From the NCBI GenBank assembly GCA_034190875.2, contig CM067343.1, positions 18,854,029 to 18,918,028 of the forward strand: 64,000 bases of DNA, in the 5' to 3' direction. Of this stretch, positions 9,626-61,468 are shown piece after piece. The notes below the pieces were generated by a model that did no database searches, was not told the origin of the DNA, and worked only from the letters and a program-made list of their open reading frames with translations. A program made the position numbers and the translations under genes. Source of the stretch: Urechis unicinctus. Lineage: Eukaryota > Annelida > Polychaeta > Xenopneusta > Urechidae. Position 1 is the first letter of the stretch, and every line of letters begins with the position of its first letter.

Positions 9626-10660
9626 AATTCCAAGCAGGGACAAGTCATTAATCGTAATGTAGATATATTACAGTACAGGGCTACCTTGAAACAAATCAGC
9701 CCATTAAGTGACAATTGGCAACACCAGAAAAGGAGAATTTATCAGATGAAATTATGCAGGAGGTAGCTGCTATACCCACCCATTGAAGCATACTAAGTCT
9801 TGTAGGCACAGCATAACGGAAGGCTGGATTTTAAACTTTCCGTCATTTGAATCCCCCGAACATAATTCATCTGGCTGTTATATTTAACTTCAACAACATG
9901 ATGGACGTCACATCAGTTACAAGTGTAGATTGTAGTTTGAATGTAAATAAAATACAAATAGCTATGTACCTTGGATAAGTAGACAAAAACGGTTAGCATC
10001 CAATCAGAAAATGTAGAAAAGACACAGGTCTCGCGTAATCTAGTGATACTATGACTGGATAATTTGTCATGAGAGGCAACAAGGTCCTCGACCTTATTGC
10101 CTCTCATGGTTAGAGGACCGTATTTTACCAAACAATGCTGTAAACAAAAACAAGTATGTTGATGAGCATAAGGCCCAGCTAGACACGGCATGTGTCTCAG
10201 AGCAGGCGGTCGGTACGATACCTATTGCCATCTCTTGTGGACATCTCAATCTATCAGTTACCGCTTAGTTATAAAACATTGTATGAGAGTTCTGCTACAG
10301 AGCAAAATATATACCTTTCCCATCTCTGTGAAGTGGAGAATTAAGGCTAAATCAATAGAAACTTATAAGCTATATAAATTGATAAAACAAATTTCCTTTA
10401 TCAAGCATGGGAGATACAAGGCTCTGGAGAAGCCTAAAATTTGTTGTGCCTGATTTCTACACCTGTGAATAATGTTGATAATTGTTTACTCAGTTACTTC
10501 AAAAATGTTCTGGAGTGCTTGGGATGAGGCGGTATTTGGATGATGGTATTAAAGGTGCTTGTAGTAGGTTGTTCGAGTGGGGCTTTTTTTAAAAAAAAAT
10601 TCCTTGAACTGTCCTACACATAATTCTGTATATTTCATGACACACAGAACTATAAGGCAG
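9626..10660. other. Non-coding duplicon sequence downstream of ABCG copy 1
   Basis: Begins caaattccaagcagggacaa and aligns by eye to 30090-31150 and 55370-56440, with scattered substitutions and short indels. No exon, ORF or RNA gene is supported. It marks one side of the three-fold tandem unit. Confidence 0.7.
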
Positions 10661-11195
10661 CAGTAGACCGGAACGGGGCTATCTGACAATAGTAGACAGA
10701 AATGGGGATATCTGACAGCAGTAGGCCGAAACCGGACTATCTGACAGCAGTAGAACGAAATGGGGCTATCTGACAGCAGTAGGCCGGAACAGGACTATCT
10801 GACAATAGTAGACCGAAACGGGGATATCTGACAGCAGTAGGCCGGAACAGGACTATCTGACAATAGTAGACCGAAACGGGGCTATCTGACAGCATTAGGC
10901 CGAAACAGGGCTATCTGACATCAGTAGGTTGGAACAGAACTATCAGACACCAGTAGGTTGGAACAGAACTATCAGACACCAGTAGGTTGGAACAGAACTA
11001 TCAGACACCAGTAGGTCGGAACAAGACCCTCTGACATCAGTAGGTTGGAACAGAACTATCAGACACCAGTAGGTTGGAACAAGACCCTCTGACATCAGTA
11101 GGTTGGAACAGAACTATCAGACACCATTAGGCCGAAACAGGGCTATCTCACATCAGTAGGTCGGAACAGGACTATCTGACAGCAGTAGGTCGGCG
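10660..11195. repeat. 29-bp minisatellite at 3' end of ABCG copy 1
   Basis: About eighteen imperfect copies of a 29-bp unit with core gtcggaacaggactatctga followed by cagcagtag. Variants use gaaacggg and gttggaacagaactatcaga. The array overlaps the last codons and stop codon of the ABCG gene. The same family recurs at 31150-31620, 50357-50500 and 56430-57472. Confidence 0.92.
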
Positions 11196-14100
11196 CAGAA
11201 AGCGCAGCACTATATATGCCAGAAAGCGGAACACGACAAGGAAAGCGCACATAAGCGTGAGGTCGAACCACAATGGTTCTGTTAAGGCCGTTGTGTCGAG
11301 ATGGGCGGCGCCTGTGAACGTCGAGTTACCAGAAATACACTCCGAGAAAGCAGACTTGTTGTGGGGGGTGCATCTGAGGATCAAACGAGACATCTAATGG
11401 AAATAGACTATATAAATATTGGCTGATAGCCGAAATTCTGTCTCCGAAATTCTTTAAGCGAAGAATATTAACTGTAACTATTGAAAAAGATCGATTCAGG
11501 TCAGAACGAGTAGTAACTTACTGGAATGGTTCTCCATGTAGGAATTCAACCTTCACCAAGGCAGCAAACGAATAATAAAGAAGGGAGCAGTATTTGATCC
11601 ACTGGAAATAACTGGGCAGATTTTGGTTGTAGTAGCCCCCTGTGAATAAATAAATATTACATCGCAAATTAATTTGCATTGTAACGGTAATCATGTGGAC
11701 CGTAACGACGAATAAGAAAGCCATTAAATGATGGAGATGAAATGAAATACAAACCAGCCATGATTTTTGAAAGCATGATCACCGATGACGTCATCACAGA
11801 TGTCTTGAAGTCAGTCACAGACACGCCGATCAGCAGGCCTATACTCTGGATCAATTAACTATGTAAGTCACGATCATACGAATATCGCATTGACGAACCA
11901 CGTGCAAAATTATGCCAATTAATGGCAACCTTATTCTCAAACTGTCTTTAAAGGTGCATTTTATCAAAAATAATGAACATTTTGTTGTAAAAAAACCCAT
12001 CAATTCATCGACCGATTTCCGACTTATTTTGAAATAATATTCATGAAATCGAGCCCAGTCTGTGGTCCCCTCTATATCTGCGGACTTAATTAAGTCTGAT
12101 TATTTGGTTTCTTGACCTAGTGGATGGACTTATTCGCTTATGTTTGTAAACTAAGTCCAGTGGATGTTTTCAAAGCACCGATTTCGATGAATTATGGAAG
12201 ATTCGGTGTTGGTAGTACTAACAAAGGATTACAATCCATTCATATTAGCAACAAGACAAAAACGCGAGCAAAATAGAAATTGAACCTGGAACCGACAAAA
12301 TGCATATACATGTAATTTTTACCTGTGCTGAAAATACTGTCAAGTATAGAACGAAGAGTGTGCTGAAGAATGAGGCTGGGTCACGTGACAGGTTGGCCAT
12401 CCAGTAGACGATGATGCAGTAGATCGTTGGAAGTAAGAACATAAGGGGACTTTCTGTTGTCATCTTCGCGAAGAAATAAGCAGAGAGTCTGTAGGCGCCG
12501 GAGGAGCGCTCCTTGGACACCACACCACGCTCGTCTGGAACTGTTACAAAAACGAAGTGCTCAGCAGATTACAGGCGCAAGCTCCTATTTGTGATATGAG
12601 TTTACTGACTTATGAAAGGGAACTCACACGACGTGACGATGTCAAACACGGAGCTTATGCTGAAGTAAACGCTCATGAAATATAGCTGCAACACATGGTA
12701 TGGTACACAGGTGGTCACATGGCTAGATGTGATTAGATGGTACAAAAATGGGTACATAGCTTGATGTTTAAATTAAATAGAGGTTAATTGATGGTACAAA
12801 GGAGGTCACATAGCTTGATGTTAAAACTATATTGGTCGTAAAATATGCGATGTTGGTAACATGGTTGGGTGTAATATTGATAGGTAGTACATTGGCTTCA
12901 TGCATGAATTATGAAAACCACTTCAAATCTACCTAATATTTGTCACTACAAAACCACATGACAACTGTTACATTGATCCACAGCTCCCATCGCCTCATAA
13001 TAAACTCACCACACCCATCCTGTCATTTAGTGTTTGCTCATTTCGCGGCAGGTCGAACCAAACAACTCCAGCAGCAACTGCTAAAATAATTGTTTGGAAG
13101 AAATTCAGTTTAGATAGAATCCGCGAACGAGCTTGCAGAAAGTTCCGTTGGGTCAACGTGGAATATTGAGTCCAAAAAGAAGTCTGCCATTTGGCTCCCT
13201 CAAGGATGTACGTATCAATGTCAAGGTCGGGATCGGTTTTCCTTTGATCAAAATCGATGAAGACCTCATCAGAGTTTCGTTTGCAGTCATCACCTGTAGG
13301 TCGTACATGAAGGATGGAAATATCGTTACGACACGGATGGGACGTGGTATGCTAGTGTCAGGATAGTAGAGTGGTCGTATGAACGTGATGTGATAAGTAG
13401 AAAGAATTGGGATAGAAAGCAAAATATCGCATGCCTAAATCAGCATTTGGCCAATTATAAAGACTCCGTTATGACGTTGATTATATGGCGGTGTCTGATA
13501 TAAAAAGGTGTCCACTTAGCAACATATTTGACCGCATCGTTTTATGTAAGACAATCTATTGTTATAAACAAACAAACAAGCTATTACAATCAAAAGACAT
13601 GCCTGCCTTGACGTAGGACAAGCCGACGATGTCATTGCCAGGAAGGTTCAGATTTTCTTCCATGGCGCTCATCGGTTTGTGGTCGCGTTCCTCATCTTGT
13701 GCAGCAGTAGTAATGGCTTTAATTGCACCGTCTGCTGAACGCAACTCCGCCGGCCAACTCGGATGCTTTCTATCAAAATAGATTTGTTGATGGCTTAATA
13801 TTAACTATATCTTAAAGATTGCATCTTAATATTAAGGGCATTGAGGAATGATAATTACAATTCTAGCCCTTATGTGTCATGAGTTCAGTCACTTTGATTC
13901 TAGAGATATCATGATAGCTTACATGATCGACCGACTTATGTAGTGTTTTATTATCTGATATCTTTGACTTATCTCCCAGGAAATATAGTTATATGGCATA
14001 CAAACCTAAGCCCATATGCAGCTCCAATTATCTTCTTTTCTATCTCGGCACCTTCCTTTACTTTCTCCACTGAAGAAACAAACGCAGAAAACTGATGAAA

Positions 14101-16639
14101 AATAGGCATATTTCTAGCTTGTGTCATGTGTCACCTGTACGTTTAACAATTAACTCACAAATAAAGTCAGCCGGATTATAGTGAAGTGCGCAATGTAAGC
14201 CTATGTTGCTGAAAAAATCCATGATGTTTTCACCTCTCCCGAAATAAGCCACCTGCAAGAAAATTATGATCACAGCATCAGAGAGTATTGATACATTTTA
14301 AGTGGAAAATGAACGAGTGTCACTTGTCGTTTTGATCAGATATATAATGTAATGATACCTCGCCGTTAGCGATGAGCAGAATGTTATCAAACATGTAGAA
14401 TATTTGGCTGGACGGCTGGTGTATGGTGGTGACAACAGTCTTCCTGGAATTCTGGGTGTATTGTTTTAACGTTGACATCAAACTGAAAGCTATGGCGGAA
14501 TCCAGGCCTGACGTAGGCTCCTGTCAGTCAGACATTACGATCATATTCCAAACAAATCAAGGTTGACTGAATGGTGGGTGCAAGATCAACGGATGACTCA
14601 ATGAAATTCCGCTACCATAACGTATGATATGGCATATTTTGGATTATAAATGAGCAGAACACTTACATCTAGAAGAAGAATTTTTGGGTTTGTGAGGAGT
14701 TCACATGCAATACTGGCTCTCTTCTTTTCCCCTCCAGACAAACCTGGCACAAAGAGTCCGCCCATGGCTGCAAAAAAAGGCAAATAACATACAGTTCTAT
14801 TTCTCACAAGTTTTGCAATATAACAGTAGAACAGCTTCCTTGCAAAATAGCATGTATATCATAGTTACGTTCGCTATCACGTTTGGCCGTTTGGTGTTTT
14901 ATTTCAGTCGACATCCTTTGAAAATGTACCTGTGTTCTCGCATTTCTTGAGGTCGAGACTGGAGATGATTTCATCTACACGCTGCATCTTCAAATCCTTA
15001 GACATGGTGTCCGGCAGCCGTAAATATGCTGTGAACTGAAGGCAAAGTACAGACACACATCAACAATGATATCCAGTTTTACCAGAATTAACACAGACTC
15101 TGCAATGACATCTAGTGAATCAGATTTTCATACATTTGGTGTTCAACCAAACGACAAATACCGAATAACCAACCAAACAATTCCGGATTACTGCCCTATT
15201 AATTCCCAATAAGCACCCCAAAAAAATCAGCGAAACCATTAAATAATGCGATTTCAGCTAAACTGGTTAGCATTGTGGTTCAATATGTCAATTTGGCACA
15301 CATTTAGATTTCCCCTGAGCAAAAACTGACCTTCAGTGTTTCTCGCAAAGTGAGGAAGGGGAAAAAGATGTCAGATTGTACGACGTAACATATTTTACGG
15401 CGCATGCGCCTGGATATTGGTATTCCATTGATGGTGACCGCTCCGCTGTCGACCATTTGTCGTCCTGAAAGGCTGTTGAGTAAAGTGGATTTACCAGCCC
15501 CTATTGAATAAACAGGACAAAAAATGCACATTTGTTACATTTTATGCGCAATAAATTTAAAAGACACAACTGTTAAAAGGACAAGAATATTCATTTTCGG
15601 CGCAGTACAGCCATTCTGGAAACGATTGCACCGTCACCGTAAAGGTTGACATTGAAAGTAATCTACGGACTTCGAAATCATATGGGACAATATTGTACCT
15701 TATCCAATGAACCGCATGGGAATTTGCGTAAGAGAATATAATCCACTTTTACAATATAAATATGAATAGATAAAAATGTTGGACCCCCAGCGTTCGCTTG
15801 AAACTTTTCCACATCAGTTAAATTGAAAACCTCCACATGATCACGCAGACTGAACGTCCAGAGTGGTGGAGGCGTGGGCATAAGGGAACCTATTTCTAAT
15901 TCGGATGTGGAAGGATTCTACAAAATACTAATCCATAATTTGACGAGAATACTAGATCTACCATGGTAAATAATTATTTGGTAGAAACTCAGAATAGCCA
16001 ACAATTTAGACACAAGCGCAGACAATTAGTAGAAAACGTTCAGCAAAGATCTACGACCGCCGAAGATATATGAGATGCTATACAAAGCAAAGCTGAACCA
16101 GCAGTGTCAACAAACGCGGCCGGCTGAAATCATGTCCTACTGGTTAACCCTAAAGCGACCTTAAACTGATAGCCAACAGATCAACAGCAAGTCTTGTTGT
16201 AATGTCAGAGGGCAATTGGTGCATTTTGTCCATATATGGTTGTATTTTTGGATTGTTGACCAGAAGAATACATTGAATAGGATAGGTCCACTCCTTATTC
16301 AACAAGTGGGGTATAGTAATTTGTCTATTTATATTTCATTGGCCTACCATACCATTTCGTCTAAATATAGTTCAATGTGTAGTTCTCGCTCAGTGGAAGT
16401 CCTCCCCTTTTATTCGTAGCATAACAGTGATGATGATCGATGTGGACATGCTATATCTGTTATTGGTTTGTTTGTACCTACCACTGGGCCCCATGACGGC
16501 CAGCATCTGTCCGCCTCGAGCCAGCCCACTGACATTCTTCAGGATGCTCTTGTTGTTGATAGATACGCTGACGTCACGGAAGACGAGATCCGTGCCCACC
16601 ACATGGTTCATATCAGGTTCTCTATCATCACGGTCATGA
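11172..16639 (-). CDS. ABCG half-transporter (ABCG2-like), copy 1, 14 exons seen
   Basis: Half-size ATP-binding cassette exporter of the ABCG2 type, which works as a dimer in membranes. Exons (high to low): 16639-16482, 15500-15331, 15035-14930, 14767-14667, 14520-14359, 14252-14159, 14069-14006, 13769-13603, 13293-13010, 12685-12628, 12540-12323, 11845-11755, 11639-11522, 11373-11172. All phases agree, giving about 663 residues. Walker A GPSGAGKST is split by intron 1; then come the Q-loop region [11 protein letters not shown], signature LSGGEKKR, Walker B ILLLDEP, H-loop [19 protein letters not shown] before TM1, [16 protein letters not shown], and an extracellular loop with paired cysteines and GNST sequon. 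Intron 8 starts with GC. The first exon begins after an acceptor, so a short 5' coding exon is probably upstream; the first in-frame ATG is at 16611. The C-terminal RPTAVR and stop lie in the 29-bp minisatellite. Confidence 0.93.
12690..12860. repeat. Short tandem duplications in ABCG intron 9
   Basis: Two to three copies of a roughly 45-50-bp unit containing atggtacaaaggaggtcaca and tagcttgatgtt. Equivalent repeats are at about 33060-33240 and 57475-57640. The deletion junction of copy 3 falls inside this repeat. Confidence 0.65.
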
Positions 16640-26560: not shown

Positions 26561-26946
26561 CCTTCAAGGATGAATGGGGAAAAAGACATGGATGACGATG
26601 AAAAAGTCGCCACCGATTGATTGTACCAGACCATATCAGCCTCTCATCTAGATGAAATCCGGGACATAGTGGTGTTTTGCAGATATGACCCCAAAGGGTT
26701 TCTGAGGAAGTTGCACGGGGTTGGCTTACAATTTTGTGGCAGATCTACCTGCCAATCCGGAAACACATGCCCCGAGTGTTGTTTGTGCAGGTAAGAAATT
26801 TCATTTTTCTAAGACTTTTGCTGCACTATATTAGTAAAATAAAAACTTCCACGATCGAACGAGTGCAAGCACGTCCAAGCAATAAACAATGAAGTTACCC
26901 ACTGAAAAAAAACCCCAAAGACGCAATAAAGGCAGCTCAACTGGGG

Positions 26947-28052
26947 TTAAGCACCCTCTCCACATGGCGCTCCTCCCCAGTGTTGTTTGTGCACCAAAGA
27001 GTCATGGCACATGTACGAAGATAACAGGACCTTACGCAAGGGGGAGCCCAAATGGATAGGGTCACTGCCTCTTTCGATCATGCACGTCCTATCCGATCCT
27101 ACAAATCGACCAAGAATTTGGCAATGCACAGGGATGTCACGGATAGGGTTCAAGCCTACCTCCCAAAAAGTTGTTTTGCCTGTTCATGGGATTATGAACT
27201 CCATACACAAAACAAGAAACCTGTTGAACGGCTAGTTTTCAAACGGACCAAGTGGACTGTTACAAACTATCTGCGTGGGTGGATGATGAACGTTCCTGTG
27301 GGTCACCCCCTCGGTAGGGACTCTGATGTTCTAAAGAGGTGTGCGTAGGCAGATGAGTGATGTTCTGACCGCTGAGCTTAAGGGGTGCTGTAAATTGGGT
27401 GCAGGTGAGGCTCATGAAGTTCACCGGCGTTGGTGACATTGAGCATGCTGAGCCTGTACTGCGTAATAAGCAGGAGGTGGTACTCTCCTCAAAAGATATT
27501 GGCAATATCCCGAACAGGAGCATCGTTGATATCCAAGAGCGGTTTGGGAAGTTGGACCAACAGAGGTTCCAGCTGGGAGTTTGAGTCAGTCGCAACTCTG
27601 TAGATTGACGTTGCCAGATACCAGCCATTCAAAGGTGGCTCCTACCTGCCACTACCAAGTGTCCTGGCAGCAAAGAAACTGATCATAAACGTGAAGAACA
27701 AGGACGACTACTGCCTTCTATGGTCTATTGAATCGGCTATGCATCCAGTCACTAAAAAAACCCAGTGGTGTACAGATGACTAAATGCTCCTATGCACATG
27801 GCGCGTGAGGACAGAAGAGTGCACAAGGCATCATCATACTGTCATATGTGCAGAAAACAACTGGGCGGCGACTCTGTCGGCAACCACTGCCATATAACAG
27901 GTAAGTACCACAACGCAGCCCATAGCCTGCAACTTGAGTCCTAAGACAATGGTCTTGTCTGTAGTCTTCCACACAAAATGTTTGTAGGCATGTGCATATT
28001 CGACCTCTCCAAGCACCTGATGTACGACTTCCTATTACAACACAATGAAGTC
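26947..28052 (+). pseudogene. Polinton/Maverick protein-primed DNA polymerase B, N-terminal remnant (copy A)
   Basis: The plus strand carries phrases of the Polinton PolB N-terminal region. An INVKNKDDYCLLWSIESAMH-type frame near 27690-27745 matches the usual (I/V)NxxNxDxxCFxW block. Near 27840-27950 comes a zinc-binding block C-x2-C...HCHITGKY. Frames change several times, and a 2-base loss near 27922 relative to copy B breaks the block just after GKY. No palm-domain catalytic motifs follow; at 28052 the sequence switches abruptly to minus-strand gypsy RT. No terminal repeats or capsid genes of a Polinton are visible. Confidence 0.75.
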
Positions 28053-28310
28053 CTGCGAGACCTTCATTCCAAACAGTAGCCCGAGGAATCCGTACAGACC
28101 ATATGGAGAGTTGAACGTTGTGTGCTTGCTCGATTCGTCGTTGAGCACGATGCTCCAGTACCCGTGGCAGAAAATCACATTCATTCCTTAATTTCTGAAT
28201 ATACACAATCGTCCCTATGGCTTCTACTGTTATATGTACAAAACGTTTAGTTGTGACACATTGATGAAATTGTAAATCAAAAACCATGTAGCGCATTCCA
28301 GTAAAACAGT
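28053..28310 (-). pseudogene. Ty3/gypsy reverse transcriptase fragment (copy A)
   Basis: The minus strand shows the same RT block as 7380-7480 (the Y-G-R-Y and LPFGM stretch), here with changed bases and joined to an SIVLDDE-like frame upstream. An overlapping long frame reads it out of phase. Compared with copy B, about 1.01 kb (51690-52700) is missing here, joining the RT directly to Polinton sequence. Confidence 0.7.
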
Positions 28311-31150: not shown

Positions 31151-31620
31151 AGTCTCACACAGAACTATAAGACAGTAGTAGACCGGAACGGGGCTATAGG
31201 ACAATAGTAGGCCGAAAGAGGACTATCTTACAGCAGTAGGCCAAAACGGGGATATCTGACAGCAGTAGACCGAACAGTAGTAGACTATCAGCAGGAGGTC
31301 GGAACAGGACTATCTGACACTATCTGACACGGGGATATCTGACACGAGTAGGTCGGAACAGGACTATCTGACAGCAGTAGGTTGGAACAGGACTATCTGA
31401 CAGCAGTAGTAGGTCGGAACAGGACTATCTGACAGCAGTAGGTCGGAACAGGACTATCTGACAGCAGTAGGTCGGAACAGGACTATCTGACAGCAGTAAG
31501 TAGGTCAGAACAGAACTATCTGACTAGTAGTTTGAACAGCAGTCGGAACGGCGCAGAAAGCAGCGCAGCACTATATATGCCAGAAAGTCGGAAGGACTAT
31601 CTGACAGGACAGCAGTAAAG
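31150..31620. repeat. 29-bp minisatellite at 3' end of ABCG copy 2
   Basis: About fourteen units of the gtcggaacaggactatctga family, with irregular spacing after 31500. Unit-derived sequence (tcggaaggactatctgacag) has entered the last exon of ABCG copy 2 at about 31588-31616. Confidence 0.9.
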
Positions 31621-34600
31621 CGCACATAAGCGTGAGGTCGAACCACAGTGGTTCTGTTAAGGCCGTTGTGTCGAGATGGGCGGCGCCTGTGAACGTCGAG
31701 TTACCAGAAGTACACTCCGAGAAAGCAGACTTGTTGGGGGGGTTGCATCTGAGGATCAAACGAGACATCCCATGGAAGGAGACTATATAAATGTTGGCTG
31801 ATAGCCGAAATTCTGTCTCCGAAATTCTTTAAGCAAATAATATTAACTGTAAGTAACGAGTAGTAACTTACTGGAATGGTTCTCCATGTAGGAATTCAAC
31901 CTTCACGAAGGCAGCAAACGAATAATACATGAAGCAGCAGTATTTGATCCACTGGAAATAACTGGGCAGATTTTGGTTGTAGTAGCCCCCTGAGAATAAA
32001 TAAATATTACATCGCAAATTAACATAATTTTCATTGTAACGGTAATCATGTGGACCGTAACGACGAATAAGAAAGCCATTAATTGATGGAGGTGAAATAA
32101 AATACAAACCAGCCATGAGGTTAAAAAGCAGGATCACCGATGACGTCATCACAGATGTCTTGAAGTCAGTCACAGACACGCCAATCAGCAGGCCTATACT
32201 CTGAATCAATTAAATATGTAAGTCACGATCATACGAATATCGCATTGAAGAACCATGCGCAAAATTTTATGCCAATTAATGGCAGCCTTATTATCAAACT
32301 GATTTTAAAGGTGCATTTCATAACAAAAATGAACATTTTGTTGTGAAAAAAAACCCATCATCGACCGATTTCCCACTTATTTTGAAATAATATCCATCAA
32401 ATCGAGCCCAGTCTGTGGTCCCCTCTATATCTGGGGACTAAATTATGTCTGATTATTTGGTTTCTTGACCTAGTGGATGGACTTATTCGCTTATGTTTGT
32501 AAACTAAGTCCAGAGGATGTTTTCAAAGCACCGATTTCGATGAATTATGGAAGATTCGGTGTTGGTAGTACTAACAAAAGATTACAATCCAGTCATATTA
32601 GCAACAAGACAAAAACGTGAACCAAATAGAAATTGAACCTTGCACCGACAAAATGCATAAACATGTAATTTTTACCTGTGCTGAAAATACTGTCAAGTAT
32701 AGAACGAAGAGTGTGCTGAAGAATGTGGCTGGGTCACGTGACAGGTTGGCCATCCAGTAGACGATGATGCAGTAGATCGTGGGAAGTAAGAACATTAGGG
32801 GACTTTCTGTTGTCATCTTCGCGAAGAAATAAGCCGAGAGCATGTAGGCGCCGGAGGAGCGCTCCTTGGACACCACGCCACGCTCGTCTGGAACTGATAC
32901 AAAAACGATGGTCTTTGAAGTGCTCAGCAGGATATAGGCGCTAGCTTCAATTTGTGATATGAGTTTACTGACTTATGAAAGGGAACTCACACGACGTGAC
33001 GATGTCAAGTACGGCGTTTATGCTGAAGTAGACGGCCGTGAAAAATAGCTGCAACACGTGGTATGGTACACAGGTGGTCACATGGCTGGATGTGATTAGA
33101 TGGTACAAAGGTGGTCATATGGCTGAATGTGAAACTGAATTGCAGGTGAATAGATGGTACAAAGGTGGTCACATAGCTAGATGTTTAAATTAAATGGAAG
33201 TTAATATATGGTACTAAGGAGGTCACATAGCTTGATGTTAAAACTCTATTGGTCGTACAATATTGCGATGTTGGTAACATGGTTGGGTGTAATATTGATA
33301 GGTAGTACATTGGCTTCATGCATGAATTATGAAAACCACTTCAAATCTACTTAATATTTGTCACTACAAAACCACATGACAACTGTTACATTGATCCACA
33401 GCTACCATCGCCTCATAATAAACTCACCACACCCATCCTGTCATTTAGTGTTTGCTCATTTCGCGGCAGGTCGAACCAAACAACTCCAGCAGCAACTGCT
33501 AAAATAATTGTTTGGAAGAAATTCAGTTTAGATAGAATCCGCGAACGAGCTTGCAGAAAGTTCCGTTGGGTCAAAGTGGAATATTGTGTCCAGAAAGAAG
33601 TCTGCCATTTGGCTCCCTCGAGGATATACGTATCAATGTCAAGGTCGGGATCTGTTTTCCTTTGCTCAAAATCGACGAAGACCTCACCAGAGTTTCGTTT
33701 GCAGTCATCCCCTGTAGGTCGTACACGAAGGGAGGAAATATCGTTATGGATGGGACGTGGTATGCTAGGGTCAGGATAGGAGAGTGTTCATACGTAGGTG
33801 ACGTGTTATATTGCGGATTGATGAGGAGAAAGAATAGTAAACAAAATGTCGCATGCCTAAATCAGCTTTTGTCCAATTATAAAGACTCGAGAGTGGCAGC
33901 CCTCGGTTATGATGTTGATTATATGACGGTATGTGATATATAAAGGTATCCACTAAGCAAAATATTTTGACCGCATCAAACATACAAATAAACTGTTACA
34001 ATCGAAACACATGCCTGCCTTGACGTAGGACAAGCCGACGATGTCATTGCCAGGAGAGTTCAGATTTTTTGCCATGGCGCTCAGCGGTTTGTGGTCGCGT
34101 TCCTCATCTTGTGCAGCAGTAGTAATGACTTTAATTGCACCGTCTGCTGCACGCAACTCCGCTGGCCAACTCCGATGCTTTCTATCATAATGGATCAGTT
34201 GATGACTAAACATTAAAGATATCTTAAACATTGCATCTTAATTTAAAGGGCATGAGAAATGATAATTACAATTCTTGCCCTTATGTGTCATGAGTTCCGT
34301 CACTTTAATTCTAGAGATATCATGATAGCTTACATGATCGACCTGTTTATGTCGTGTTATATTATCTGATATATTTGACTGATCTCCCAGGAAATATAGT
34401 TATAAGGCATACAAACCTAAGCCCATATGCAGCTCCAATTATCTTCTTTTCTATCTCGGCACCTGCCTTTACTTTCTCTACTGAAGAAACAAATGCAGAA
34501 AACTGATGAGAAATAGGGACATTTCTAGCTCGTGTCATGTGTGACTTGTACGTTCAACAATTAACTCACAAATAAAGTCAGCCGGATTATAGTGAAGTGC

Positions 34601-37075
34601 GCAATGTAAGCCTATGTTGCTGAAAAAATCCATGATGTTTTCACCTCTCCCGAAATAAGCCACCTATTATGATTATGATTACAACATGGAAGCATGGTTA
34701 TAGTTACATCATCAGAGAGTATTGATACATTTAAAGGCGAAAATCAACGAGTGTCACTTGTTGTTTTGATCAGATATATAATGCTATGATACCTCGCCGT
34801 TAGCGATGAGCAGAATGTTATCAAACATGTAGAATATTTGGCTGGACGGCTGGTGTATGGTGGTGACAACAGTCTTCCTGGAATTCTGTGTGTATTGTTT
34901 TAGCGTTGACATCAAGCTGAAAGCTATGGCGGAATCCAGGCCTGACGTAGGCTCCTGTCAGTCAGACATTACGATCATATTCCAAACAAATCAAGGTTGA
35001 CTGAATGGTGGGTGCAAGATCAACGGATGGCTCGATGAAATTCCGCTACCATAACGTATGATGTGGCGTATTTTGTATTGTAAATGAGAATGATTTAGCA
35101 GGTGTGGGATTGGAGAAATTTAGCAGAACACTTACATCTAGAAGAAGAATTTTTGGGTTTGTAAGGAGTTCACATGCAATACTAGCTCTCTTCTTCTCCC
35201 CTCCAGACAAACCTGGCACAAAGAGTCCGCCCATGGCTGCAAAAAAGGCAAATAACAGTTCTATTTCACAATAACAAGAAAAAACATAGTCACGTTTGCT
35301 AATACGTTTAGCCCTTTGTTGTTTTATTTCAGTCGACATCCTTTGAAAATGTACCTGTGTTCTCGCATTTCTTGAGGTCGAGACTGGTGATGATTTCATC
35401 CACACGCTGCATCTTCAAATCCTTAGACATGGTGTCCGGCAGCCGTAAATATGCCGTGAACTGAAGGCAAAGTACAGACACACATCAACAATGATATCCA
35501 TTTTACCAGAATTAGCACCAACTCATATATGATTACCACTAACAGAATCCGCGATGACACCTAGTGAATCAGATATACATACATTCGGTGTTTAACCAAA
35601 CGACAAGTACCGAATAACCACCCAAACTATTCAGAATAACTGCCCTAACAATTCCCACCCCAAAAATCAGCAAAACCATTAAACAATGGAATTTCAGCTA
35701 AACTGGTTAGCATTGTGGTTCATTGTGTCAAACTGGCACACATTAAGATTTTTCCTGAGAAAAACCGACCTTCATTGTTTCTCGCAAAGTGAGGAAGGGG
35801 AAAAAGATGTCAGATTGTACGACGTAACATATTTTACGGCGCATGCCCCTGGATATTGGTATTCCATTGATGGTGACCGCCCCGCTGTCGACCACTTGTC
35901 GTCCTGAAAGGCTGTTGAGTAAAGTGGATTTACCAGCCCCTATTGAATAAACAGGACAAAAATGAACATAAGTTTCATTTTTATGCGCAATAAATTTAAA
36001 GGCAGGCACAACTGTTAAAAGGGCAAGTATATTCATTTTCGGCGCTGTACAGCCATTCTGGAAACGATTGCACCTTCACTGTAAAGGTTGACATTGAACG
36101 TAATCGACGGATTTCTCAATCATATGGGGCAATATTGTATCTTATTCAATGAACCGCATTGGAGTTTGCATAAGAGAATATAATCTATTTTTTCGATATA
36201 AATATGAATAGATAAAAATGTTCGTTTAAAACTTTTCCACAACAGTTAAATTGAAAACCTCCACATGATCACGCAGACTGAACGTTGTGGTGTGGACGTG
36301 GGCATCAGGGAGCATATTTGTAATGCGGATGTGGAAGGATTCTACAAAATACTAATCCTTATTTTGGCGAGAATACTAAATCTACCATGGTAAATACTTA
36401 CTTGGTAGAAACTCAGAATGGCCAACAATTTAGACACAAGCGCAGACAATTAGTAGAAAACGTTCAGCAAAGATCTACGACCGCACAAGACGTAAGAGAA
36501 GCTCTACAAAGCAAAGTTGAACCAGTAGTGTCAACAAAAGCGGGCGACTGAAATCATGTCCTACGGATTTATCCCAAAGCAACCTTAAACTAAAAGGCAA
36601 ACACATCAACACCAAGTCTGGTTGAAATGGCAGAGACCGCTGCAAGGGCAATTGGTGCATTTTGTCCATATATGTTTTTGTTTTTGAATTGTTGACCAGA
36701 AAAATACATTGAATGGCATAGGTCCACACCTTATTCAACAAGTGGGATATAGTAATTTTTCTATTTATATTCCATTGGCCTACCATACCATTTCGTCTAA
36801 ATATAGTTCAATGTGTAGTTCTCGCTCAGTGGAAGTCATCCCCTTATATCCATAGCATAACAGTGATGATGATCGATGCGGACATGCTATATCTGTTATT
36901 GGTTTGTTGGTACCTACCACTGGGCCCCATGACGGCCAGCATCTGCCCGCCTCGAGCCAGCCCACTGACATTCTTCAGGATGCTCTTGTTGTTGATAGAT
37001 ACGCTGACGTCACGGAAGACGAGATCCGTGTCTACCACTCGCTTCATATCAGGTTCCCGATCGTCACGGTCATGA
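31571..37075 (-). CDS. ABCG half-transporter (ABCG2-like), copy 2, 14 exons seen
   Basis: Same architecture as copy 1. Exons (high to low): 37075-36918, 35939-35770, 35460-35355, 35236-35136, 34954-34793, 34663-34570, 34480-34417, 34181-34015, 33711-33428, 33048-32991, 32893-32676, 32200-32110, 31989-31872, 31748-31571. Exon lengths equal copy 1 except the last. Walker A, signature, Walker B and H-loop are intact and intron 8 again starts with GC. Exon 10 differs most ([19 protein letters not shown]). The C-terminus is changed: after WFDLTLMCA it reads [15 protein letters not shown] and stops, where copy 1 has [18 protein letters not shown]. The replaced stretch is 29-bp minisatellite sequence. 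The last membrane segment stays hydrophobic but ends about eight residues early. A short 5' exon is probably missing from this model too. Confidence 0.9.
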
Positions 37076-50250: not shown

Positions 50251-50356
50251 CCAAGAATCTGAAGGCAGGAATTGAATTAGGCAACAAAATGATGTAAATT
50301 GTGGGAAAAATCAAGCCTTTATCCTCGGAAATATTCGGGATTCCAGATTTTCGGAA

Positions 50357-50500
50357 CAGGGCCATCTGACAACAGAAGGTCGGAACATGACTATATGACA
50401 GCAGTAGGTCGCAACAGGGTTCTGACAGCAGTAGGTCGGAATATGACTATATGATAGCTGAAGGTCGGATCAGGGCTATCTGATAGCAGTAGGTTTGGTA
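50357..50500. repeat. 29-bp minisatellite, short array
   Basis: Five diverged units (gtcggaacatgactatatga type), related to the arrays at the ABCG 3' ends. It lies at the junction between unit 2 and unit 3 of the tandem duplication. Confidence 0.8.
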
Positions 50501-56430: not shown

Positions 56431-57472
56431 CACACAGAACTATAAGACAGAAGTAGACCGGAACGGGGCTATAGGACAATAGTAGGCCGAAAGAGGACTA
56501 TCTTACAGCAGTAGGCCAAAACGGGGATATCTGACAGCAGTAGACCGAAACGGGGATATCTGACACGAGAAGGTCGGAACAGGACTATCTGACAGCAGTA
56601 GGTTGGAACAGGACTATCTGACAGCAATAGGTCGGAGCAGGACTTTCTGACAATAGTAGGTCGGAAAGGACTATCTGACAGAGTAGGTCGGACAGGACTA
56701 TCTGACAGCAGTAGGTCGGAACAGGACTATCTGACATCAGTAGGTCGGAACAGGACTATCTGTCAGCAGTAGGTCGGAACAAGACTATCTGACAGTGTAG
56801 GTCGGAACTGGACTATCTGTCAGTAGTAGGCCGGAACAGGACTATCTGACAGCAGTAGGTCGGAACAAGACTATCTGACAGTCGGAACAGGACTAGTCAG
56901 CAGTCGGAAAACAGGACTATCTGACAGCAGTAGGTCGGAACAGGACTATCTGACAGCAGTAGGCCGGAACAGGACTATCTGACAGCAGTAGGTCGGAACA
57001 GGACTATCTGACAGCAGTAGGTCGGAACAGGACTATCTGACAGCAGTAATTCGGAACAGGACTATCTGACAGCAGTAGGTCGGAACAGGACTATCTGAGT
57101 AGGCCGGAACAGGACTATCTGACAGCAGAACAGGTAGGGCCGGAACAGGACTATCTGACAGCAGTAATAGGCCGGAACAGGACTATCTGACAGCAGTAGG
57201 ACTATCTGACAGCAGTAGGTCGGAACAGGACTATCTGACAGCAGTAGGCCGGAACAGGACTATCTGACAGCAGTAGGTCGGAACAGGACTATCTGACAGC
57301 AGTAATTCAGAACAGGACTATCTGACAGCAGTAGGCCGGAACAGCACTATCTGACAGTAGTAGGCCGGAACAGGACTATCTGACAATAGTAGGTCGGAAC
57401 AGAACTATCTGACAGTAGTAGGTCGGAACAGGACTATCTATCAGCAGTAGTTCGGAACAGGATTATCTGACA
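56430..57472. repeat. Expanded 29-bp minisatellite replacing ABCG copy 3 exons
   Basis: About 35 units of the gtcggaacaggactatctga family, many identical, some truncated or fused. It is the longest and most homogeneous array of the family here. Its right edge at 57472-57475 joins catggctggatgtgattat, which lies in intron 9 of the ABCG gene (equivalent to about 33080). Confidence 0.93.
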
Positions 57473-57819
57473 GCATGGCTGGATGTGATTATATGGTACA
57501 AAGGTGGTCATATGGCTGGATGTGAAACTGAATTGCAGGTGAATAGATGGTACCAAGGTGGTCACATAGCTAGATGTTTAAATTAAATGGAAGTTAATAT
57601 ATGGTACAAAGGAGTCACATAGCTTGATGTTAAAACTCTATTGGTCGTACAATATTGCGATGTTGGTAACATGGTTGGGTGTAATATTGATAGGTAGTAC
57701 ATTGGCTTCATGCATGAATTATGAAAACCACTTCAAATCTACTTAATATTTGTCACTACAAAACCACATGACAACTGTTACATTGATCCACAGCTACCAT
57801 CGCCTCATAATAAACTCAC

Positions 57820-60800
57820 CACACCCATCCTGTCATTTAGTGTTTGCTCATTTCGCGGCAGGTCGAACCAAACAACTCCAGCAGCAACTGCTAAAATAAT
57901 TGTTTGGAAGAAATTCAGTTTAGATAGAATCCGCGAACGAGCTTGCAGAAAGTTCCGTTGGGTTAAAGTGGAATATTGTGCCCAGAAAGAAGTCTGCCAT
58001 TTGGCTCCCTCAAGGATATACGTATCAATGTCAAGGTCTGGATCTGTTTTCCTTTGCTCAAAATCGACGAAGACCTCACCAGAGTTTCGTTTGCAGTCAT
58101 CCCCTGTAGGTCGTACACGAAGGGAGGAAATATCGTTATGGATGGGACGTGGTATGCTAGGGTCAGGATAGGAGAGTGGTCATACGTAGGTGACGTGTTA
58201 TATTGCGGATTGATGAGGAGAAAGAATAGTAAACAAAATGTCGCATGCCTAAATCAGCGTTTGTCCAATTAGAAAGACTCGAGAGTGGCAGCACTCGGTT
58301 ATGATGTTGATTATATGACGGTATGTGATATATAAAGGTATCCACTAAGCAAAATATTTTGACCGCATCAAACATACAAATAAACTGTTACAATCGAAAC
58401 ACATGCCTGCCTTGACGTAGGACAAGCCGACGATGTCATTGCCAGGAGAGTTCAGATTTTTTGCCATGGCGCTCAGCGGTTTGTGGTCGCGTTCCTCATC
58501 TTGTGCAGCAGTAGTAATGACTTTAATTGCACAGTCTGCTGCACGCAACTCCGCTGGCCAACTCCGATGCTTTCTATCATAATGGATCAGTTGATGACTA
58601 AACATTAAAGATATCTTAAACATTGCATCTTAATTTAAAGGGCATGAGAAATGATAATTACAATTCTAGCCCTTATGTGTCATGAGTTCCGTCACTTTAA
58701 TTCTAGAGATATCATGATAGCTTACATGATCGACCTGTTTATGTCGTGTTATATTATCTGATATATTTGACTGATCTCCCAGGAAATATAGTTATAAGGC
58801 ATACAAACCTAAGCCCATATGCAGCTCCAATTATCTTCTTTTCTATCTCGGCACCTGCCTTTACTTTCTCTACTGAAGAAACAAATGCAGAAAACTGATG
58901 AGAAATAGGGACATTTCTAGCTCGTGTCATGTGTGACTTGTACGTTCAACAATTAACTCACAAATAAAGTCAGCCGGATTATAGTGAAGTGCGCAATGTA
59001 AGCCTATGTTGCTGAAAAAATCCATGATGTTTTCACCTCTCCCGAAATAAGCCACCTATTATGATTATGATTACAACATGGAAGCATGGTTATAGTTACA
59101 TCATCAGAGAGTATTGATACATTTAAAGGCGAAAATCAACGAGTGTCACTTGTTGTTTTGATCAGATATATAATGCTATGATACCTCGCCGTTAGCGATG
59201 AGCAGAATGTTATCAAACATGTAGAATATTTGGCTGGACGGCTGGTGTATGGTGGTGACAACAGTCTTCCTGGAATTCTGTGTGTATTGTTTTAGCGTTG
59301 ACATCAAGCTGAAAGCTATGGCGGAATCCAGGCCTGACGTAGGCTCCTGTCAGTCAGACATTACGATCATATTCCAAACAAATCAAGGTTGACTGAATGG
59401 TGGGTGCAAGATCAACGGATGGCTCGATGAAATTCCGCTACCATAACGTATGATGTGGCGTATTTTGTATTGTAAATGAGAATGATTTAGCAGGTGTGGG
59501 ATTGGAGAAATTTAGCAGAACACTTACATCTAGAAGAAGAATTTTTGGGTTTGTAAGGAGTTCACATGCAATACTAGCTCTCTTCTTCTCCCCTCCAGAC
59601 AAACCTGGCACAAAGAGTCCGCCCATGGCTGCAAAAAAGGCAAATAACAGTTCTATTTCACAATAACAAGAAAAAACATAGTCACGTTTGCTATTACGGT
59701 TAGCCCTTTGTTGTTTTATTTCAGTCGACATCCTTTGAAAATGTACCTGTGTTCTCGCATTTCTTGAGGTCGAGACTTGTGATGATTTCATCCACACGCT
59801 GCATCTTCAAATCCTTAGACATGGTGTCCGGCAGCCGTAAATATGCCGTGAACTGAAGGCAAAGTACAGACACACATCAACAATGATATCCATTTTACCA
59901 GAATTAGCACCAACTCATATATGATTACCACTAACAGAATCCGCGATGACACCTAGTGAATCGGATATACATACATTCGGTGTTTAACCAAACGACAAGT
60001 ACCGAATAACCACCCAAACTATTCAGAATAACTGCCCTAACAATTCCCACCCCAAAAATCAGCAAAACCATTAAACAATGGAATTTCAGCTAAACTGGTT
60101 AGCATTGTGGTTCATTGTGTCAAACTGGCACACATTTAGATTTGTCCTGAGAAAAACCGACCTTCATTGTTTCTCGCAAAGTGAGGAAGGGGAAAAAGAT
60201 GTCAGATTGTACGACGTAACATATTTTACGGCGCATGCCCCTGGATATTGGTATTCCATTGATGGTGACCGCCCCGCTGTCGACCACTTGTCGTCCTGAA
60301 AGGCTGTTGAGTAAAGTGGATTTACCAGCCCCTATTGAATAAACAGGAAAAAAAATGAACATAAGTTTCATTTTTATGCGCAATAAATTTAAAGGCAGGC
60401 ACAACTGTTAAAAGGGCAAGTATATTCATTTTCGGCGCTGTACAGCCATTCTGGAAACGATTGCACCTTCACTGTAAAGGTTGACATTGAACGTAATCGA
60501 CGGATTTCTCAATCATATGGGGCAATATTGTATCTTATTCAATGAACCGCATTGGAGTTTGCATAAGAGAATATAATCTATTTTTTCGATATAAATATGA
60601 ATAGATAAAAATGTTCGTTTAAAACTTTTCCACAACAGTTAAATTGAAAACCTCCACATGATCACGCAGACTGAACGTTGTGGTGTGGACGTGGGCATCA
60701 GGGAGCATATTTGTAATGCGGATGTGGAAGGATTCTACAAAATACTAATCCTTATTTTGGCGAGAATACTAAATCTACCATGGTAAATACTTACTTGGTA

Positions 60801-61468
60801 GAAACTCAGAATGGCCAACAATTTAGACACAAGCGCAGACAATTAGTAGAAAACGTTCAGCAAAGATCTACGACCGCACAAGACGTAAGAGAAGCTCTAC
60901 AAAGCAAAGTTGAACCAGTAGTGTCAACAAAAGCGGGCGACTGAAATCATGTCCTACGGATTTATCCCAAAGCAACCTTAAACTAAAAGGCAAACACATC
61001 AACACCAAGTCTGGTTGAAATGGCAGAGACCGCTGCAAGGGCAATTGGTGCATTTTGTCCATATATGTTTTTGTTTTTGAATTGTTGACCAGAAAAATAC
61101 ATTGAATGGCATAGGTCCACACCTTATTCAACAAGTGGGATATAGTAATTTTTCTATTTATATTCCATTGGCCTACCATACCATTTCGTCTAAATATAGT
61201 TCAATGTGTAGTTCTCGCTCAGTGGAAGTCATCCCCTTATATCCATAGCATAACAGTGATGATGATCGATGCGGACATGCTATATCTGTTATTGGTTTGT
61301 TGGTACCTACCACTGGGCCCCATGACGGCCAGCATCTGCCCGCCTCGAGCCAGCCCACTGACATTCTTCAGGATGCTCTTGTTGTTGATAGATACGCTGA
61401 CGTCACGGAAGACGAGATCCGTGTCTACCACTCGCTTCATATCAGGTTCCCGATCGTCACGGTCATGA
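57820..61468 (-). pseudogene. ABCG half-transporter copy 3, truncated (exons 1-9 only)
   Basis: Exons (high to low): 61468-61311, 60331-60162, 59852-59747, 59628-59528, 59346-59185, 59055-58962, 58872-58809, 58573-58407, 58103-57820, nearly identical to copy 2 with intact frame, motifs and the GC donor of intron 8. Exons 10-14, which would encode TM2 to TM6, are absent; the 29-bp minisatellite begins in intron 9. The nucleotide-binding domain, linker and TM1 remain. Changes against copy 2 include Gly to Cys in the linker (AADCAIKV) and Thr to Ala in [11 protein letters not shown]. It cannot make a complete half-transporter unless spliced to exons elsewhere; a truncated protein or transcribed pseudogene is possible. 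Confidence 0.9.

Follow-up and report, generated by a model that had tools for sequence, protein, structure and literature searches.

How does one member of a gene cluster come to end in a protein tail that its relatives lack, with altered bases that look like a unit of the tandem repeat lying just beyond the gene? The question is raised by an ABCG half-transporter gene of Urechis unicinctus that is present in three copies, all on the minus strand, in the 64,000-nucleotide stretch of DNA analyzed here (the window; C2:18854029-18918028 of the 1.19-Gb assembly). Three further ABCG copies (copies 4 to 6), two of the three inverted, lie farther along the cluster, which was read as a 264-kb string; 20,499 bases of this string are N, so that additional ABCG copies could be hidden in it.

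Fourteen coding exons were modelled on copy 2 and then mapped to the other copies; the start codon in exon 1 is a guess, and an additional upstream exon may exist. In the copy 2 model (31571..37047, minus strand; exon model and Pfam), the frame is open for 646 codons plus the stop, all 14 exons are open, and the splice-site dinucleotides are present, with GC at intron 8. A first exon 8/9 junction was rejected because it left exon 9 of copies 1, 4, and 5 shifted by five bases relative to copy 2, and a GC-AG intron 8, in frame in copies 1, 2, 3, and 5, was adopted for that reason. Under this model, intron 8 seems to start with GC rather than GT in copies 1 to 6 (window position 34014 in copy 2), the mapping in copy 6 being rough. 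Exon mapping yielded an intact model of 654 amino acids for copy 1 (11172..16611, minus strand), with the ancestral-type tail LRRPTAVR before the stop, and exons 1-9 only for copy 3 (57820..61440, minus strand). Copy 5 is likewise an intact model of 654 amino acids, copy 4 carries a one-base frameshift in exon 8, and copy 6 carries several lesions; the mapped length of 178 for exon 14 of copy 6 was dismissed as an alignment artefact. At cluster positions 165313-165156 (C2 about 19019184-19019341) lies a fragment that shares 98% identity with copy 2 exon 1; no other exon mapped there, and the fragment was left out of the copy count. In Pfam searches, both copy 1 and copy 2 possess PF00005 (ABC_tran) at residues 24-173 and PF01061 (ABC2_membrane) at residues 373-581, that is, the domain order of an ABCG half-transporter (N-terminal ABC, then ABC-2 membrane), and the closest solved chain is ABC transporter G family member 25 (8i38).

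The last exon of copy 2, with its changed C-terminus and new stop, occupies 31748-31571 on the minus strand in the exon model (acceptor cctcag; stop codon at 31573-31571), the same boundaries, to the base, as in the original prediction (31571-31748). The last exons of copies 1 and 2 had been said to agree up to ...LMC, which is nearly the case: they are mostly the same, but 4 of the 126 nucleotides differ (one synonymous and three nonsynonymous changes). Past MCA, copy 2 continues for 15 residues and then stops, versus 23 residues in copy 1. A whole-genome search with the last-exon peptide of copy 1 produced seven matches at E up to 1 (nine candidates scored), five in the cluster and two at 22.17 and 22.18 Mb (the outlying paralogs L001 and L004). 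The ancestral-type end, AYxVLRFLxRPxxxx followed by the stop, is present in six of the seven, namely, all four other cluster copies that bear exon 14 and both outlying paralogs. Its last residues are LRRPTAVR in copies 1, 4, and 5, LHRPTGVR in copy 6, LRRPGGVR in L001, and LRRPAHFN in L004, and the stop codon of all six tails falls at the same codon, four residues past RP. The C-terminus described as altered in copy 2 is indeed so: every other exon 14 copy compared keeps the ancestral-type end, and copy 2 is the sole exception.

Comparison of copies 1, 2, 4, 5, and 6 delimits the change to a block of 29 bp in copy 2 (31588..31616, minus strand) that is flanked by GTGCGCTTT and CTTTCTGG and stands in place of 15 bp in copy 1 (11227-11241). 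The original prediction spoke of expansion by a 29-bp unit; the actual change is a replacement with a net gain of 14 bp, and it shifts the frame by +14. The resemblance of the changed bases to the minisatellite unit, which reads CTGTTCCGACCTACTGCTGTCAGATAGTC in the gene sense, was borne out, with a local alignment score of 19, whereas the 15 bp of copy 1 score 9. When 20,000 segments were picked at random from the cluster outside the listed arrays, a single one reached 19, and this segment (cluster 107113, score 23) is itself a piece of the 29-bp repeat. The patch is an imperfect copy, its alignment to the unit showing one mismatch and, at two bases each, one insertion and one deletion; alternatively, it can be read as a unit in which CTGTC is doubled and TG is missing. 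Elsewhere in the 264-kb string, the patch 15-mer CTGTCAGATAGTCCT is found at 29 sites, and the 25 of these 29 that were listed all lie inside the arrays of copies 1, 2, and 3. The best patch scores by array are 19 to 19.5 for copies 1 to 5, 17 for copy 6, and 15 for the orphan array described below, and given the near-equal scores across the arrays of copies 1 to 5, the donor array cannot be named. In the protein, the patch encodes the stretch of copy 2 that begins at the first new Leu and runs to Thr, and FWHI is ancestral DNA read in the shifted frame; 3' of the stop that copy 2 gained, three bases are inserted and the first unit is scrambled.

A block of this kind could also be an assembly or consensus error next to a repeat array, and both arrays and near-identical duplicates (at an offset of about 24.4-25.3 kb) adjoin the region. 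Against such an error, the patch is flanked by coding stretches that match other copies, and it stands apart from the array, its start lying 35 bp away from the gene-side array edge (31553). We regard an artefact as very unlikely.

The array sequences of the cluster were read by eye. In the window, the 29-bp arrays, all on the minus strand, lie 3' of copy 2 (31159..31553), at the end of copy 1 (10644..11205), where the first unit includes the last codons and the stop, and at copy 3 (56434..57475), where the array is joined to intron 9 sequence at about 57474; a further array of this unit, at 50351..50494, is an orphan, no gene end being seen next to it. More orphan pieces of the repeat were observed at cluster positions 107113-107458 and 217870-217927 (C2 about 18961141-18961486 and 19071898-19071955), where near-copies of window 50351-50494 are mixed with other sequence. 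All five cluster copies that bear exon 14 have a gene-end array, versus neither of the two outlying paralogs, and the array was duplicated along with the gene; its length varies among the copies of the window in this one assembly. AATAAA or ATTAAA is found downstream in seven of the eight stretches examined, first at 110 to 1,105 bases past the stop or the array start, and neither motif occurs within 906 bases in copy 1; judged from these signals, the arrays may lie in 3' untranslated sequence. Other repeats were noted in the same window: a 44-bp tandem array of 20 copies with 92% matches at 46-932, separate from the 29-bp repeat, and a tandem repeat of 54 bp inside intron 9, both in copy 2 (33092-33243) and in copy 3 (57485-57635), where the 29-bp array adjoins it. 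At 26600-28100 on the plus strand, broken frames with many stops resemble a mobile element's type B DNA polymerase and endonuclease.

Where the unit came from can be addressed through the ends of the genes themselves. In copies 1, 4, and 5, the first unit consists of the eight codons of LRRPTAVR, the stop, and two bases, and is identical to the unit at 27 of 29 positions; in copy 6, it is identical at 26. The outlying paralogs help to decide which of the two came first because there is no array in the 3.2 kb examined at either. The single best ungapped match of the unit on both strands is the gene end in L001 (18/29 in 3,225 bases; next best 17 on the same strand and 16 on the other) and again in L004 (17/29 in 3,222 bases; next best 15 on the same strand and 16 on the other), and a one-strand scan of the two paralogs pooled (6,418 29-mers) likewise places the best unit match at the gene end. 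When the LRR codons are left out (20 nucleotides), the gene end of L001 scores 13/20, tied with one other of 3,205 same-strand sites, the reverse strand reaching 12, and that of L004 scores 12/20, tied with two others of 3,202 same-strand sites, a reverse-strand site scoring 13. Because L001 and L004 are related and the margins are small (one base), the gene end is favored, not proven, as the founder. When up to three mismatches are allowed, the 29-mer matches the genome at 47 sites, all 47 at C2:18.86-19.11 Mb (a reversed control gave 0), and the more diverged orphan array (window 50330-50500) used as a query gave 24 matches from eight candidates scored, all in the cluster; older or more diverged copies may exist outside the cluster, the orphan query having covered the best candidates only.

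These likenesses bear on the opposite direction of copying, in which a foreign minisatellite settled at the gene end and overwrote the last codons, the change in copy 2 being a further creep inward. The orphan arrays without a gene end in the cluster are compatible with such an arrival, as is the fact that the last codons of the cluster copies are unit-like today; a foreign repeat would, however, have to square with a gene end that is the best match of the unit in each array-free paralog, with a stop position shared by six ancestral-type tails, four residues past RP, and with matches (at up to three mismatches, and with the orphan query) confined to the cluster. We consider this direction improbable and read the sequence comparisons as indicating that the 29-bp unit probably derives from the ABCG gene's own end.

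A unit that includes the end of the coding sequence has consequences for the reading frame. At 29 bp, it is not a multiple of three and holds a stop codon, so it is not a unit translated in frame. The original prediction held that each expansion into the gene also changes the frame; this does not apply to the four ancestral-tail cluster copies, where the stop codon lies inside the first unit and expansion leaves the frame intact (four of the five cluster copies with exon 14), the patch of copy 2 being a single replacement off the array. Were a perfect array read through, a stop would be met once per 87 bases, 29 being 2 modulo 3. On the whole, the prediction was right that the tail of copy 2 was rewritten by repeat-unit sequence, with the frame changed and the new tail hydrophobic, but its general rule on frame change fails, and it overlooked the likely gene-end origin of the unit.

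Copy 3 is altered in a different way. Its exons 10-14 were not found by mapping the copy 2 exon models. Copies 2 and 3 form a tandem duplication (offset 24.4 kb on the gene side, 25.3 kb on the opposite side) and are 98.1% and 98.4% identical in the nearest flanks and 94.7% identical across a further 1.2 kb. Copy 3 has no counterpart of about 31.55-33.08 kb of copy 2, and its array runs straight into intron 9 sequence. Given the patch in copy 2 and the loss in copy 3, two of the window's three copies have had the 3' end of the gene altered at, or by, the repeat.

The history that we consider likely is that the minisatellite was born from the end of the ABCG gene, spread with its duplication, and donated the patch of copy 2, and that a deletion between the array and intron 9 shaped copy 3. 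The founder would have been the coding 3' end (the eight final codons and the stop, with two further bases), from which the unit would have expanded past the stop and then been carried along in gene duplication. In copy 2, the codons for the last membrane helix would have received sequence from a donor unit through a short gene conversion or template switch, with the brief shared stretch TGTTCCG as the probable guide, and the replacement of 15 bp by 29 bp would have moved the frame onto a stop met by chance. Exons 10-14 of copy 3 would have been lost to a deletion between its array and intron 9. A more far-reaching version, in which the gene-end minisatellite would act as a standing donor of new C-termini, recombining repeatedly with ABCG last exons, and copy 2 would be expressed with its new tail kept, appears quite unlikely on the sequence at hand.

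What the patch did to the protein can be gauged from the tail itself. The statement that the new tail is hydrophobic was confirmed, the best 19-residue Kyte-Doolittle mean being 1.97, versus 2.42 in copy 1. The further suggestion that hydrophobicity lets the tail persist fares less well: the tail is still hydrophobic, but its mean is lower, it contains Gln and Pro, and the conserved Arg-rich end is lost. On an insertion scale, the tail of copy 2 scores 2.0 versus -1.5 for that of copy 1, and by hydropathy, it is a shorter and weaker helix than that of copy 1. Copy 1 aligns to residue 661 of the 662 of 8i38, through the last helix, whereas the alignment of copy 2 ends at query residue 607, short of this helix. 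The conserved C-terminal sequence is present in copies 1, 4, 5, and 6 (among these, hydropathy covered copies 1 and 5, and the solved-chain alignment covered copy 1); copy 2 lacks a complete last membrane helix with the conserved end, the second half of the helix being replaced. At most, copy 2 would be a transporter whose last helix is impaired.

Copy 2 could instead be a decaying pseudogene, its tail change a lesion without consequence, an explanation compatible with the proposed origin of the tail and, in our estimate, a serious one with somewhat less than an even chance. Decay would fit the damage to sister copies (the frameshift in exon 8 of copy 4, the several lesions of copy 6, and the lack of exons 10-14 in copy 3), and it would fit the excess of changes found only in copy 2 in exons 10-13, which, counted by whole codons, number 18 at 477 sites, versus 11 at 1,263 sites in exons 1-9 (p = 9e-5), or, with split codons included, 18 at 485 versus 12 at 1,278 (p = 2e-4). 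The lineage-only changes in exons 10-13, counted with copy 3 omitted and possibly distorted by gene conversion among the copies, are (nonsynonymous/synonymous) 12/6 in copy 2, 0/1 in copy 1, and 1/4 in copy 5 (Fisher p = 0.06 for copy 2 versus copies 1 and 5 together), and 27/12 for copies 2 and 4 together versus 1/5 for copies 1 and 5 (Fisher p = 0.02). Against decay, all 14 exons of copy 2 are open with splice-site dinucleotides, and exons 1-9 give a dN/dS of 0.27 versus copy 1, although much of the history behind this value may predate the patch. We lean towards relaxed constraint on copy 2, short of proof. As a separate observation, exon 10 of copy 2 (window 33048-32991) is 77-87% identical to those of copies 1, 4, 5, and 6, most other exons being 90-100% identical, and five of its six copy-2-only changes are nonsynonymous; it may be a fast-changing membrane segment.

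Two known systems show that 3'-end minisatellites altering C-termini are not new. In primates, SPANX-N is a duplicated family with a 3'-end minisatellite, the array lying past the stop or encoding the C-terminus, depending on the paralog (PMC1831492), and the present case is alike in being a duplicated gene family with such a repeat. The SPANX-N unit, however, is 39 bp, a multiple of three (PMC1831492), whereas the ABCG unit is 29 bp, and the portion of that report available to us mentions no derivation of the unit from a gene's own stop region, the probable source of the ABCG unit. In human CEL, small lesions in a last-exon VNTR shift the frame and produce aberrant protein tails, according to the accessible part of the source (PMC8692231); a last-exon repeat, a frame shift, and an altered tail are common to both cases. 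The 33-bp segments of CEL encode 11 residues in frame, unlike the 29-bp ABCG unit with its stop codon, and the lesion described there is a single-base deletion inside the repeat, whereas that of copy 2 is a repeat unit in upstream codons (PMC8692231). What differs from both systems, then, is a stop-containing, non-triplet unit that probably comes from the gene's own end, together with a unit-like patch in a membrane helix. At listing level, a literature search returned no recognised report of a minisatellite that arose from the stop region of the gene it adjoins or of a comparable ABCG cluster.

Where neither founder nor array is coding, the birth of a minisatellite is difficult to trace. In this cluster, coding sequence with a known frame is the likely founder, and array-free paralogs are present in the same genome, so that birth, spread, and damage to the parent genes would be traceable at one locus, the damage consisting of a rewritten helix in copy 2 and five lost exons in copy 3.
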